Source of the DNA: a bacterium
GTDB lineage: Bacteria > Desulfobacterota > Deferrisomatia > Deferrisomatales > Deferrisomataceae
Assembly (NCBI GenBank): GCA_027021615.1
Contig: JALUTY010000053.1
Coordinates: 1-38,919 of the forward strand
DNA length: 38,919 bases
Reading direction: 5' to 3'
Below, piece after piece: positions 7,010 through 33,920 of the stretch (position 1 is the stretch's first letter; every line of letters begins with the position of its first letter). Below the pieces are notes generated by a model. It searched no databases. It was not told where the DNA came from and saw only the letters and a program-made list of their open reading frames with translations. The translations under genes were made by a program, and so were the position numbers.

Positions 7010-7222
7010 ACGGCCGTGAATCGTTGGGACGCTAGGACGGTAGGACGCTGGGACGCGAAGCGTCGTCACCCATCCCTCGTTACTGGTCACCGCCAAGCTG
7101 CCGTGGATCGTTGGGACGCTTCGCGTCCGCTGGGCAGCGGAGCGGCTGGGCGGCCGGGGCGCCCCCCCATGGCCGGCTACGCGGGCCGCCTCCCAGCCTC
7201 CCAGCTTCCTAGCCTCCCAGCG
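7010..7222. repeat. Octamer/heptamer tandem arrays between rfbD and the sugar dehydrogenase
   Basis: Octamers of ACGCTAGG/ACGGTAGG/ACGCTGGG type (7027-7060), a TCGTTACTGGTCACC tract, and reverse-complement octamers CCTCCCAG/CTTCCTAG (7188-7222) that run into the last codons of rfbD. Confidence 0.75.
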
Positions 7223-9507: not shown

Positions 9508-9531
9508 GGAACCTCCGTTCATACGTGCGAA

Positions 9532-9580
9532 CGTTGGGACGTTAGGACGCTGGGACGTTGGGACGTTGGGACGCCTCGCT
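9532..9580. repeat. Octamer array ACGTTGGG/ACGTTAGG overlapping the rfbB stop
   Basis: Five to six units of ACGTTGGG, ACGTTAGG or ACGCTGGG with exact 8-base period. Read on the reverse strand, the array encodes the last ten residues of RfbB and its TAA stop. Confidence 0.85.
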
Positions 9581-10685: not shown

Positions 10686-10722
10686 TTCCGCTGGGACGCT
10701 AGGACGCTAGGACGCTAGGACG
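10686..10722. repeat. Octamer array ACGCTAGG upstream of rfbB
   Basis: Four successive ACGCTAGG-type octamers with little divergence, 32 bases upstream of the rfbB start. An almost identical tract sits at the same distance before the FAD oxidoreductase gene (15765-15798). Confidence 0.8.
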
Positions 10723-11789: not shown

Positions 11790-11862
11790 CGTGCGAACGT
11801 TAGGATGCGTGGACGTGCGAACGTAACGTCCTAACGTCCTCGCGTCCCAACGTCCTAACATC
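11790..11862. repeat. Octamer array with both orientations
   Basis: ACGTTAGG/ATGCGTGG units then reverse-complement ACGTCCTA/ACGTCCCA units up to the radical SAM stop codon, which is contained in the array (TGTTAGG). Confidence 0.75.
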
Positions 11863-12928
11863 CCGCCCCCCGGAACGGTACCGCGAGCCAGCGCTCCACG
11901 TCGCCTTCGAGTTCGGGCCCGCAGCCGAGCGCCGCCTGCCACATGGCGGGGGTCTCCATGCAGAGGTAGAGCCGCAGGCCCGGGCCGGTCCGGCGACGGA
12001 TCTGGCCGGCCAGGAACCGGTAGGCGTCCCGGCGCAGGGGCCAGAAGTACCGAAGCTTCCCGTCCTCCCCCGCCACCTGCTCCCCGAAGAACGCCGTCCG
12101 GCCCCGGAGCGCCGGCCCCCACCGCTCCAGGAACCGGCGGGGAAACCGCAGGGTGCCCAGGCTGATCCAGGCGACCCGCTCCGGCGGCACCGCATCGAAG
12201 ATCGCCTCCACCACCCCAGCGTACGCCGCGCGCCAGCCCCCCTCGAGGATCACCGGGTCGAAGTGGAACGCGACCCGGAAGCCGACCCGAACCGCCTCGG
12301 CAGCCGCCGCCAGCCGCCGTTCCAGAGGGGCCGTTCCCGGCTCGTCCGTGCGGATCCGGGACGGCGGGTTCACGGACCAGGCCAAAACCACGTTCGGCGC
12401 GGGCCCGTCCTCGAGCACCCCCTCGATCCGGTCGCTCTTGGTCTTGAGCTCCAGGAGCACCCGGGGGTGGAGCGCCACCAGGTTTCGGAGCCAGCGGGCA
12501 TGGCGGGTCCAGGGGTCAAGGGCCAGGCTGTCGGCGAACTCCCCCGTGCCCAGCCGCACGGGCCCGGGCCACCGGGCCAGCGCGTCCCGGAGCTCGGCCT
12601 CGGCGTCGGCCAGGTTCGCGTACAGGGTCAGGGGCTCGTCCGGGGCGTAGAACCGCAGGAAGCAGTACGCGCAGGCGAACGGGCACTGGAACGCCGGGGA
12701 GAGCACCCAGTACCCACACCGCACCACCCCGGGGCTGCAGGGGCACGGCTTCAGGAACCGGCCGGGCTCCCGGGTCAGGTGCACCGTGGTGCGGCCCCGG
12801 GGCGGGGGGGCTCCGGGGCCGAGGATCTCCACCGGCACGGCCGACCCGACCCGGTCCAGGAACTCCCGCGTGAACCGGAGGTCGGCCACCTCCCGGTCCA
12901 CCACCACCCGGGCGAACGGGGGCCTCAC
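11855..12928 (-). CDS. Spore-photoproduct-lyase-like radical SAM protein
   Basis: 357 residues. Radical SAM cluster motif CX3CX2C is C82-PFA-C86-AY-C89, in the form seen in spore photoproduct lyase relatives, with an extra Cys-rich lead (CPCSPGVVRC, 62-71). Later family marks: RIRTDEPGT, RRLAAAAEAVRVGFRVAFHF, PVILEGGW, SLGTLRFP and LYLCMETPAMW near the end. The segment aligned with the H-donor cysteine of Bacillus SPL reads GTGEFADSLALD and has no Cys, so SP-lyase chemistry itself is doubtful. GTG at 12928 overlaps the ParB-like stop (GTGA), giving the usual coupling. Its last codons lie in an octamer repeat. Likely a DNA- or nucleotide-acting radical enzyme; substrate unknown. Confidence 0.82.
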   Translation of the reverse strand: MRPPFARVVVDREVADLRFTREFLDRVGSAVPVEILGPGAPPPRGRTTVHLTREPGRFLKPCPCSPGVVRCGYWVLSPAFQCPFACAYCFLRFYAPDEPLTLYANLADAEAELRDALARWPGPVRLGTGEFADSLALDPWTRHARWLRNLVALHPRVLLELKTKSDRIEGVLEDGPAPNVVLAWSVNPPSRIRTDEPGTAPLERRLAAAAEAVRVGFRVAFHFDPVILEGGWRAAYAGVVEAIFDAVPPERVAWISLGTLRFPRRFLERWGPALRGRTAFFGEQVAGEDGKLRYFWPLRRDAYRFLAGQIRRRTGPGLRLYLCMETPAMWQAALGCGPELEGDVERWLAVPFRGAGC

Positions 12929-13875
12929 CCCAGGAACTCCGCGAGGGGCGCCCACGCCCCCTCCTCGACCGCACGATAGACCCGGTCGAGCCGGCCCTTC
13001 AGCTCGGCGAGGCTACCGAACGTCACGACGCACCGCAGCCGGCCGCCCTCGAAGTGCTGGGGGGCCTCCACCCGGACCCCCTCGGGCACCGGGATCTCGG
13101 CCGAAACCCGGGCGAACCGCCCCTCCCACCCGACCAGGGTGGGGTACCGCCGTCGCCGCAGCTCCTGGCGTAGGGCCTGAGGATCCCCGGCCCACCGGTC
13201 CAGCCCCTCGTCCCGCAGCCACGCCCCCACGTCCCGACCCCGGCGCCAGGCACACTCCAGGGCCAACCGGGCCAGCTCGGCGAACCGGTTCCCGCCCAGG
13301 CGCCACCGGCCCAACCAGTCCAGGATCGCCACGGCCTCGGCCTCAGGCAGGTCGCCCAGCACCCGGGCCGCCGCCACGGGCAGCCGGCCCCCGGCTGCGG
13401 CGTCCCGGTGCCGGGGCGGCAGGGCCGCGAACCACAGGGGGCCCGCCGCGGCGCCGATCCGGGGCGCCAGGCCGAGCCGGGGGAACACCCCCTTGGTCAA
13501 CGCCTCCAGGGGCTCGCCGGTGTCGGCCTGCCGCCGGACGAGGTACAGACCCACCTCCACCGCGTTCCACGGCCGGTGGTCCGTGTGGTCGTCCAGAAGC
13601 CGGTCCCACAGGGCCGGGCCACGGACCTCGGTCACCCGCACCGGGGCCACGGCCGCCCCTTGCGCCCGCAGGGCCGCCGCCCGCCGGGCCCCCGCCAGAA
13701 CCACGAACCCGTCGCCCTCGGGGCGGGCCCACAGCGGCCGCAACACCCCTGCCCGGGCCAGGCTCTGCTCCAACCGGGCCCGCTCGTCCGCCGACGGCCA
13801 GGAGAACGAGTACCGGTCCGGCTCGGCCCGCAGCCGGCTCAGCTCGACGGTTTCGATCCGATCCGTCCCAACCAC
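12925..13875 (-). CDS. ParB/Srx-like domain protein paired with the radical SAM gene
   Basis: 316 residues. N-terminal 90 residues look like a ParB/sulfiredoxin fold: ERARLEQSLARAGVLRPLWA, then VVLAGARRAAALRAQG (box-II-like GxRRxxA at 62-68) and DDHTDHRPWNAVEVG. The remaining 200 residues are Arg/Leu-rich helices with no family I recognise. There is no ParA nearby, and the box that binds parS is unclear, so a chromosome-partition role is not supported. GTG at 13875 has a strong GGAGGGAGG; it lies inside the glycosyltransferase end (37-base overlap). The 4-base overlap with the radical SAM gene suggests that the two proteins act together, possibly with the ParB-like part guiding the enzyme to DNA or binding nucleotide. 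Confidence 0.7.
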   Translation of the reverse strand: MVGTDRIETVELSRLRAEPDRYSFSWPSADERARLEQSLARAGVLRPLWARPEGDGFVVLAGARRAAALRAQGAAVAPVRVTEVRGPALWDRLLDDHTDHRPWNAVEVGLYLVRRQADTGEPLEALTKGVFPRLGLAPRIGAAAGPLWFAALPPRHRDAAAGGRLPVAAARVLGDLPEAEAVAILDWLGRWRLGGNRFAELARLALECAWRRGRDVGAWLRDEGLDRWAGDPQALRQELRRRRYPTLVGWEGRFARVSAEIPVPEGVRVEAPQHFEGGRLRCVVTFGSLAELKGRLDRVYRAVEEGAWAPLAEFLG

Positions 13876-14702
13876 GCCAGAGCCTCCCTCCGGGAGTGTT
13901 CGAAGACCTCGGCCCGCTGCCTGGCGCCCCGCTTTCGGGCGCCCTGGGCCACCACCCGGGCCTTGGCCGCCAGGGTCTCCAGGGCCTTGGCCCGCAGGTC
14001 GTCGGGCACCTCGGGGTCGTGGGCCACCTTCCACAGGGCCCGCACCCGGAACCGGTCGAGCCCGAAGTGGGCCTGGGAGAGCTGGCCCGAGTGGCCGTTT
14101 CGCTTGACGATCAGCCGCTCGCGCACCAGCAGCACCGGGTGGCGCGCGGTCAGGCGAAGCCAGAGGTCGTAATCCTCGCAGGCCGGCAGGCTCTCGTCAA
14201 AGCCGCCCAGCTCCTCGAACACCTCCCGCCGCAGGATCACCGACGAGGGGCTGATGATGCACAGGGGCAGGCACCGCTCGAAGATCCAGCCGGAGTGCTT
14301 GGCATGGATCTTCCTGGGGTTGGCCCACCGCCCCCGGCGGTACCAGACCTCCTCGGTGTACGCGGCCGGAAACTCCGGATGGGCGTCCAACGCCGCCAGC
14401 TGCCTTTCCAGCTTCTCGGGCCGCCACAGGTCGTCCGAGTCCAGGAACGCCAGCCACTCGCCCGAGGTCTCGGCCGCGCCCCGGTTCCGGGCCGCGCTGG
14501 CCCCCCGGTTCTCCTGGACCACCAACCGGAGGCGGGGGTCCGGGAACCGCCGCGCCAGGTGCTCGGCGGTGCCGTCGGTGCTGCCGTCGTCCACCACCAC
14601 CAGCTCCAGATCAGGGAACGTCTGGGCCAGAACGCTCGCGACCGCCTCGCCCACGAGGCCGAGGCGGTCGCGGGTGGGGATCACCACCGAAACCCGAGGC
14701 AT
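13839..14702 (-). CDS. Family 2 glycosyltransferase
   Basis: 287 residues, GT-A fold. SVVIPTRDR, VVVDDGSTDGT (nucleotide-sugar site), ENRGASAARNRG and the metal-binding FLDSDDLW are all present, followed by EDYDLWLRLTARHPV, the usual acceptor/catalytic region (ED). Cytoplasmic, no membrane helix. Donor and acceptor cannot be told. ATG at 14702 has AAGGGAG. It is the second gene of a four-gene reverse-strand operon, 26 bases after the FAD oxidoreductase. Its C-terminus overlaps the ParB-like start. Confidence 0.92.
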   Translation of the reverse strand: MPRVSVVIPTRDRLGLVGEAVASVLAQTFPDLELVVVDDGSTDGTAEHLARRFPDPRLRLVVQENRGASAARNRGAAETSGEWLAFLDSDDLWRPEKLERQLAALDAHPEFPAAYTEEVWYRRGRWANPRKIHAKHSGWIFERCLPLCIISPSSVILRREVFEELGGFDESLPACEDYDLWLRLTARHPVLLVRERLIVKRNGHSGQLSQAHFGLDRFRVRALWKVAHDPEVPDDLRAKALETLAAKARVVAQGARKRGARQRAEVFEHSRREALAWLGRIGSKPSS

Positions 14703-14728
14703 GGGGCTCCCTTCCCCCTGCGCCTACG

Positions 14729-15739
14729 CTAGTCTCCCCAACGCTCCAGCAGGGCCGTGCCCGTGAGCCTGCGAAAGTGGGCCTCCGAGGCTCCCACCCG
14801 TCGGCCCCCGCCGTGGACGAGGTTGTACCCGGCCACCCTTCCCTGCTCCCGGGCGCTCTGCCAGCCGAAGTTCCCCCGTGTCCACCCGTTCTCGCTGTCG
14901 AACACCCGGGCCGCGTCGCCCGCCGCGAAGATGTTGTCGAAGCTCGTGCGCAGCTCCCGGTCCACCACCACCCCCCGGTCCACCAGCATCCCGCTGCCCT
15001 CCAGGTACCCCACGGCCGGCTCCAGGGCGCCGGCCTCGCACACCAGGTCCACGTCGATGGCGCGCCGGGTCGAGGTGACCACCCGGTACCCGTCGCCGTT
15101 GCGGTCGAGAATGTCCAAAACCGTCTCGTCGAACAGGACCTCCACCTTCTCGGACAGGAGCTTCTCGAGCACGTCGGCCCGGGCCACCGGGGACCCCGGC
15201 GGCCAGAACCGGGTGTGGTTGGTGAGATACACCACCCGGCATCCCCGCATGGCGAAGGCTCGGACCACCTCGAGCCCCGTGTGCCCCTCCCCCTCCACCA
15301 GGACCCACGCGCCCTTGCCCACCCCGGTGCCGGCGATCCGCACCGCATCGGCAAACGAGTTCAAGGTGTGGACCTTGTGACGCAGCTCCGTGGCCCGGCG
15401 CCCCATGCGGGACACAGCGCCCGTTGCCACCAACAACCGGTCGAAGTACAGGCTGGTGCCGTCGCTCAGCAGCACCCGCGACTCGTGGGGGAACACCCGG
15501 TACACCCGGGCACCCGCCCGCACCTCGGTGTACGGGTCCTTCAGCACGGGGGTGTCGGGCCGAATCAGCCGGTCCCGCTCCAGCCGGCCTGCCACGAACA
15601 CCGCAAGGGCCGGCTTGAGATAGAAGGGGGTGAACTCCCGGCTCACCAGGGTGATCCGGGCCTTCGGGTCCTCCTGCCGCACCACCTCGGCCGCGGCCGT
15701 GCCGGCCGGTCCGGTCCCCAAGATCACGTACTGGCGCAT
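14729..15739 (-). CDS. FAD-dependent pyridine-nucleotide-disulfide oxidoreductase family protein
   Basis: 336 residues. FAD loop GTGPAG (8-13), FTPFYLKPAL in place of the redox Cys region of CoA-disulfide reductases, LLVATGAV, and the flavin-closing FAAGDAA (271-277). The fold resembles NirB-type or rubredoxin-reductase flavoproteins lacking a redox-active cysteine. The second dinucleotide loop is G-E-G-H-T-G (150-155) in place of GGGxxG, so NAD(P)H binding may be changed. Full length for the FAD/NAD part. ATG at 15739 with AAGGAGGG. First gene of the operon with the glycosyltransferase, ParB-like and radical SAM genes; it could feed electrons to the radical enzyme, an inference from position only. 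Confidence 0.82.
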   Translation of the reverse strand: MRQYVILGTGPAGTAAAEVVRQEDPKARITLVSREFTPFYLKPALAVFVAGRLERDRLIRPDTPVLKDPYTEVRAGARVYRVFPHESRVLLSDGTSLYFDRLLVATGAVSRMGRRATELRHKVHTLNSFADAVRIAGTGVGKGAWVLVEGEGHTGLEVVRAFAMRGCRVVYLTNHTRFWPPGSPVARADVLEKLLSEKVEVLFDETVLDILDRNGDGYRVVTSTRRAIDVDLVCEAGALEPAVGYLEGSGMLVDRGVVVDRELRTSFDNIFAAGDAARVFDSENGWTRGNFGWQSAREQGRVAGYNLVHGGGRRVGASEAHFRRLTGTALLERWGD

Positions 15740-15764: not shown

Positions 15765-15800
15765 GCTGGGACGCTAGGAAGCTAGGAGGCTAGGAGGCCC
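15765..15800. repeat. Octamer array ACGCTAGG/AAGCTAGG
   Basis: Four octamers upstream of the FAD oxidoreductase start, closely matching the tract upstream of rfbB, including the flanking CGCTGGGACG. Confidence 0.8.
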
Positions 15801-33889: not shown

Positions 33890-33920
33890 ATGGGAGGCTA
33901 GGAGGCTAGGACGCTTGCCC
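33890..33920. repeat. Octamer array (GAGGCTAG/GACGCTTG)
   Basis: Three to four octamers AGGCTAGG/AGGCTAGG/ACGCTTGC in the leader of the OppD-type gene. Confidence 0.7.

Follow-up and report, generated by a model that had tools for sequence, protein, structure and literature searches.

The minus strand of the window (here the whole stretch of DNA that was analysed, 38,919 nt from a bacterium of the family Deferrisomataceae) carries, side by side, genes for a flavoprotein, a glycosyltransferase (GT), a ParB-like protein and a radical SAM enzyme resembling spore photoproduct lyase (SPL). Does this neighbourhood reflect a common function and, if so, what could such proteins do together?

Organization of the operon

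We could confirm an operon of four open reading frames in the 5'->3' order flavoprotein, GT2-type glycosyltransferase, ParB-like protein and SPL-like enzyme (Table 1). The initial annotation had treated the four genes as a single unit on account of two overlaps, and both are present in the sequence: the GT2 and ParB-like genes share 37 bases, and the ParB-like and SPL-like genes share the GTGA at 12925-12928. A gap of 26 bases separates the flavoprotein gene from the GT2 gene. Pfam searches assigned the flavoprotein to Pyr_redox_2 (PF07992, E 7e-34), the GT to Glycos_transf_2 (PF00535, E 5e-35) and the SPL-like protein to SPL (PF20903; 46.7 bits, the cut-off being 27); the ParB-like protein scored 17.4 bits for ParB_N, which is under the cut-off of 26.3.

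Table 1. Positions of the operon genes and of the short tandem repeats in the window
Feature	Position	Strand	Remarks
SPL-fold radical SAM enzyme	11855..12928	-	GTG start, 357 aa; core of the module; CxxxCxxC = C82, C86, C89
ParB-like protein	12925..13875	-	GTG start, 316 aa; ParB NTP-binding fold, helix-turn-helix and conserved C-terminal region; core of the module
GT2-type glycosyltransferase	13839..14702	-	ATG start, 287 aa; DSDD and CEDYDLW motifs; co-inherited with the ParB-like and SPL-like proteins
FAD/NAD-dependent oxidoreductase (flavoprotein)	14729..15739	-	ATG start, 336 aa; first gene of the operon; lineage-specific, not core
8-base tandem runs	7021-7055, 9523-9573, 10688-10722, 11797-11861, 15767-15795, 33891-33911

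Tandem runs of an 8-base unit (of the ACGTTNGG / TCCTAGCN type) are found at many gene boundaries, including both ends of the operon, with 16-17 matches against 0.04-0.13 expected. In a PADLOC search none of the four proteins matched any anti-phage defence model, and the SPL-like protein had no match in 50,697 phage records; an origin in defence or in phages was set aside on these grounds.

Gene order in related genomes

We searched 59 relatives with each of the four proteins and found the ParB-like and SPL-like genes adjacent in most of those that possess them. Altogether, the ParB-like gene lies immediately upstream of the SPL-like gene in 72 sampled loci, with an in-frame NTGA overlap in 16; they stem from 24 families in the phylum to which the window belongs and from Aminicenantes with its phylum-mates, and include three Desulfobacter-type loci. 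Desulfobacter species possess the GT in addition to the ParB-like and SPL-like proteins. Immediately upstream of the ParB-like gene, the GT gene is found in 23 loci from 12 families. Homologues standing singly in unrelated contexts, which would have pointed to an accidental order, were not seen, and the GT gene, though mobile, still occurs in nearly the same genomes. The neighbourhoods of the homologues together with their co-occurrence (see below) thus speak for a non-accidental order and for a single module of GT, ParB-like and SPL-like proteins.

The flavoprotein is a local addition. It is present in 6 of the 59 relatives, its conservation being limited to a few families from the order of the window itself, and it also occurs in a genome (G007) in which neither the GT nor the SPL-like enzyme was found; it is therefore not a core part. 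On account of this distribution we rejected it as the core electron donor, and the dedicated electron-supplying role once proposed for it is not supported, since most module-bearing genomes lack it.

Outside the common arrangement, purC instead of the GT gene precedes the ParB-SPL pair in nine lineages, directly 5' of it, at the place taken by the GT gene in other families, in loci L064, L065, L070, L091, L092 and L102. Eight families have the GT homologue behind the ispH gene (a dusB-ispH arrangement), which is mostly fused to a UbiA-type prenyltransferase gene; such a fusion stands directly 5' of the GT homologue in L119, L120, L129, L212, L221, L222, L227, L233 and L238, with dusB before it in several families. 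In family f14 the SPL-like gene shares 4 bases with the gene for a ThiI-like sulfurtransferase-type protein (L097:9535-10509, L100:4056-5030), the ParB-like gene being located elsewhere. Family f5 has a divergent SPL-like gene which the ParB-like gene adjoins downstream, not upstream, and has no GT (L105; genome G071, C4:2091-4111). Scans of the neighbours for a fourth core partner returned only PurC, IspH-UbiA and mixed housekeeping genes.

Some of these neighbours bear on the possibility of a small-molecule or lipid pathway, in which the SPL-like enzyme and the GT would build a nucleoside, a cofactor or an isoprenoid-linked glycoside and the ParB-derived protein would serve as scaffold or nucleotide sensor. 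The position of the GT behind IspH, mostly as IspH-UbiA fusion, would fit an isoprenoid-linked acceptor, and PurC in front of ParB-SPL, occasional neighbours from the nucleoside-phosphorylase family and the futalosine pathway, as well as the dispensable N-terminal half of the ParB-like protein (see below), point in the same direction. However, no single extra enzyme is kept beside the module, and PurC and IspH are encoded by common housekeeping genes that may simply have stayed where they were. We consider such a pathway rather doubtful.

Co-occurrence of the three genes

Across 158 genomes of the window's phylum (completeness at least 90%), the SPL-like enzyme and the GT occur together in 82 genomes and are both absent from 68, while 4 contain the SPL-like enzyme alone and 4 the GT alone. 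For the SPL-like and ParB-like proteins the figures are similar: both in 85, a single one in 1 + 5, and neither in 67 genomes. The thresholds behind these presence calls were chosen after the scores were seen; weak or divergent SPL hits in G012, G015, G039, G071, G160, G173 and G180, none of which has the GT, were left out of the SPL set, and weak hits in G042 and G138 out of the GT set. The few exceptions are G099 and G124 (from one family) and the fragmented genomes G101 and G122 for the SPL-like enzyme without GT, and G057, G070, G126 and G163, all of them fragmented, for the GT without SPL-like enzyme. As the ParB gene lies at a contig edge in G070, G126 and G163, the SPL gene may be cut off there. 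At the family level both genes are present in 36 families, the SPL-like gene alone in f53 (where SPL and ParB occur without GT) and the GT alone in f34 and f70, of which f34 contains the SPL gene in another genome (G041). Even within one genus (g22) the three genes are present or absent jointly: the closed genome G025 lacks all of them, whereas G076, G128 and G171 have all three.

The same pattern was observed in a second phylum, reached via an Aminicenantes genome. Its 119 genomes contain both genes in 15 cases, SPL only in 7, GT only in 0 and neither in 97, with the ParB-like gene directly upstream in 15 of the 20 SPL loci fetched. Here the GT is nearly always encoded on a different contig from the SPL-like enzyme, so that neighbourhood alone cannot account for the co-occurrence. 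Fisher tests of the co-occurrence gave p-values of 2e-34 and 4e-14, which are naive because related genomes are not independent.

Could the association be a by-product of shared ancestry or of an anaerobic life style, the genes having no common function? All genes are indeed inherited mainly vertically, and the p-values ignore phylogeny; but the joint absence at genus level and the recurrence of the pattern in a second phylum make this highly improbable, and so does the fact that almost every genome without the SPL-like enzyme also lacks any other GT2 homologue of that strength. Taken together, the genes for the GT2, ParB-like and SPL-like proteins constitute a chromosomal module that is inherited as a whole. 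We are thus confident that the three proteins form one functional module, their co-inheritance strongly suggesting that they serve one pathway.

The SPL-fold radical SAM enzyme

The predicted model of the SPL-like protein (pLDDT 89) matches the SPL structure 4fhf with a Z-score of 32.8 over 316 residues (2.2 A rmsd), the next radical SAM family in the fold search being MqnE with Z 14.6. The kinship to a DNA-lesion lyase that had been suggested for this enzyme is hence borne out by its fold. In SPL, a donor cysteine and a relay tyrosine have assigned roles (PMC3742179). According to a profile alignment, the Bacillus-type donor cysteine (C140 in Geobacillus, C141 in Bacillus) corresponds to the near-invariant E130 of our protein, with Glu in 25 of the 26 sequences; position 90, the counterpart of the relay tyrosine Y98/Y99, is occupied by F, I, V or A. 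The same alignment contains, besides the invariant cysteines of the CxxxCxxC motif, invariant C62, C71, C323, E160, K162, H222 and D224. Unlike the Bacillus enzyme with its C141, clostridial SPL uses C74 (PMC5368176). C62 aligns to position 76 of Geobacillus SPL, at which the mutant structure 4rh0 (S76C) carries a cysteine, and we infer that the clostridial C74 occupies this very position.

As far as can be read from the alignment, a hydrogen-atom donor is possible at C62, the known relay not being conserved. Given the clostridial C74, we dropped the loss of C141 alone as a decisive argument against classical SPL activity; it counts only in combination with the missing tyrosine. Because both the Bacillus-type cysteine and the relay tyrosine are missing, while a cysteine at the probable clostridial position and family-specific residues are kept, the enzyme is probably not a classical spore photoproduct lyase; its score for the TIGR04070 equivalog is 48.6 bits, far under the cut-off of 400. 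The invariant E160, K162, H222 and D224 suggest a substrate other than spore photoproduct. Compared with SPL (SplB; PF20903, TIGR04070), the module enzyme shares the overall fold, the CxxxCxxC motif and the cysteine at the S76C-mutant position, but it has Glu for C140/C141, no tyrosine at Y98/Y99, further invariant cysteines outside the CxxxCxxC motif (C71 and C323), an invariant HFDP motif and a pairing with ParB-like and GT genes.

These comparisons bear on a role in DNA repair, in which non-sporulating anaerobes would use the SPL-like enzyme to reverse a thymine-type lesion. The ParB-like protein would act as a DNA clamp, and the role of the GT would be a separate, though correlated, one. 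The SPL fold as such would agree with repair, as would the invariant C62 with its presumed counterpart in the clostridial enzyme (PMC5368176) and the occurrence of SplB-like enzymes in SOS regulons elsewhere (PMC3765255, PMC8565304). However, the replacement of the Bacillus donor cysteine and of the relay tyrosine does not match this role, and a GT so tightly co-inherited would be unexpected in a repair pathway; we regard repair as unlikely.

The ParB-like partner

A profile of 27 relatives of the ParB-like protein finds the structures of Myxococcus, Thermus and Bacillus ParB and of Noc with E-values of 1e-20 to 1e-25 (Myxococcus ParB 1e-25), and the fold search with the predicted model (pLDDT 92.5) likewise led to ParB and Noc structures. 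As profile search and predicted fold agree, the assignment to ParB holds despite the Pfam score under the cut-off. A 2025 survey of ParB-fold proteins relied on Pfam cut-offs that the protein of the window does not reach; radical SAM enzymes are not mentioned in the main text of that survey (PMC12704722). With the ParB/Noc CTPase-fold proteins the module protein shares the N-terminal NTP-binding fold, the G-x-x-R and R..N..E boxes and the helix-turn-helix region, and G62, R65 and E107 of the nucleotide-binding boxes are invariant in the 27-sequence alignment. It differs from them in its low Pfam score, in its SPL-like partner and in the GERRxRA motif, which it does not match, the Glu of GERR being lost and the position variable. 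It also differs in the lack of an adjoining ParA, which was noticed initially: none of the neighbouring genes in the window encodes one. Contig C92 of the same genome encodes a separate ParB homologue, for which the match is restricted to the N-terminal part.

A further difference is that the N-terminal half is absent in some lineages. In families f41 and f61 the partner beside the SPL-like enzyme has only 168-178 aa and corresponds to the C-terminal half (profile positions about 150-322). Partners of this kind were seen at L095, L154, L155, L162 and L194, followed by an HDOD-looking gene in L154, L155 and L162. As both the N-terminal half and the helix-turn-helix have been lost in some lineages, parS-like DNA targeting is not essential to the common function. 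Judged from the sequences compared, the C-terminal half is the part that is always kept; its region resembles the ParB dimerisation domain by eye only, the fold search having barely covered it.

A possible route to a glycosylated nucleobase

The GT shares the GT2 domain and the acidic motifs with its family (PF00535), within which it differs as a distinct subfamily; the closest solved structures are generic GT2 enzymes, e.g. chondroitin synthase. GT-A type enzymes that act on nucleosides in nucleic acids exist, as in the galactosylation of queuosine in animals and in base J.

A nucleobase or nucleotide as substrate is suggested by the SPL fold of the radical enzyme and by its partner's descent from ParB, and we hold it to be somewhat probable that the module acts on a nucleic acid or nucleotide. 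Co-inheritance would in turn suggest that the GT glycosylates the product of the radical enzyme, a step to which we give tentative credence. The explanation we prefer, with similar caution, is that a nucleobase is modified (or repaired) by radical chemistry under the direction of the ParB-derived protein and is then glycosylated. The SPL-fold enzyme would act with the 5'-deoxyadenosyl radical on a nucleobase that most likely belongs to DNA or RNA. The partner derived from ParB would dock on this enzyme, perhaps via its C-terminal half, and its N-terminal half, where kept, would add nucleotide-gated nucleic-acid binding. The GT would then attach a sugar to the radical product, yielding a glycosylated base through an oxygen-independent radical step.

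Several observations qualify this explanation. The position of the GT behind IspH in eight families, which would fit an isoprenoid-linked acceptor, and that of purC before ParB-SPL in nine lineages count against it. The dispensable N-terminal half and helix-turn-helix of the ParB-like protein argue against an essential DNA targeting through them. Moreover, the GT step is not universal, since f53 (SPL and ParB) and f5 (divergent SPL and ParB) have no GT. The initial annotation had suggested a unit that modifies DNA or nucleotides and may glycosylate bases; this idea is partly supported and survives in modified form, without the flavoprotein.

The glycosylated base might also reside in tRNA, e.g. 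as a queuosine derivative. Single loci with the GT or the SPL-like gene near dusB, tyrS, mnmA, mtaB, sua5, rsmE or release factor 2 (several of them named by eye) would be in line with such a tRNA modification, but the scan of direct-neighbour families revealed no enrichment of translation genes except for the dusB-ispH arrangement, and we consider this improbable. TGT is present in 155 of the 158 genomes and thus so nearly universal that its co-occurrence is uninformative about a link to queuosine. The radical SAM queuine lyase QueL was considered as a relative and rejected, no sequence link having been found in open-access papers.

Implications

Apart from one unrelated genome paper, we found no paper on the ParB and SPL pair in the open-access literature, and a shared pathway of GT, ParB-like and SPL-like proteins appears to be undescribed. 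The novelty lies in the combination of the three proteins into one system; the folds have been described before, and the chemistry could turn out to be of a known kind. In its most far-reaching form, which we put forward with considerable reservation, the glycosylated-base explanation would amount to a way of making a sugar-bearing nucleobase without oxygen, comparable to base J or glycosylated queuosine but anaerobic. The SPL-fold enzyme would activate the base and the GT2 enzyme would glycosylate it, the two being guided by a repurposed ParB protein, and the route would be widespread on chromosomes in at least two phyla. Three families with separate annotations, namely glycosyltransferase, ParB domain protein and spore photoproduct lyase, turn out to be one co-inherited module, in which a ParB protein has been diverted from chromosome partition. 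Present in more than half of the genomes sampled from a large phylum, this module offers a concrete, testable handle on the pathway.
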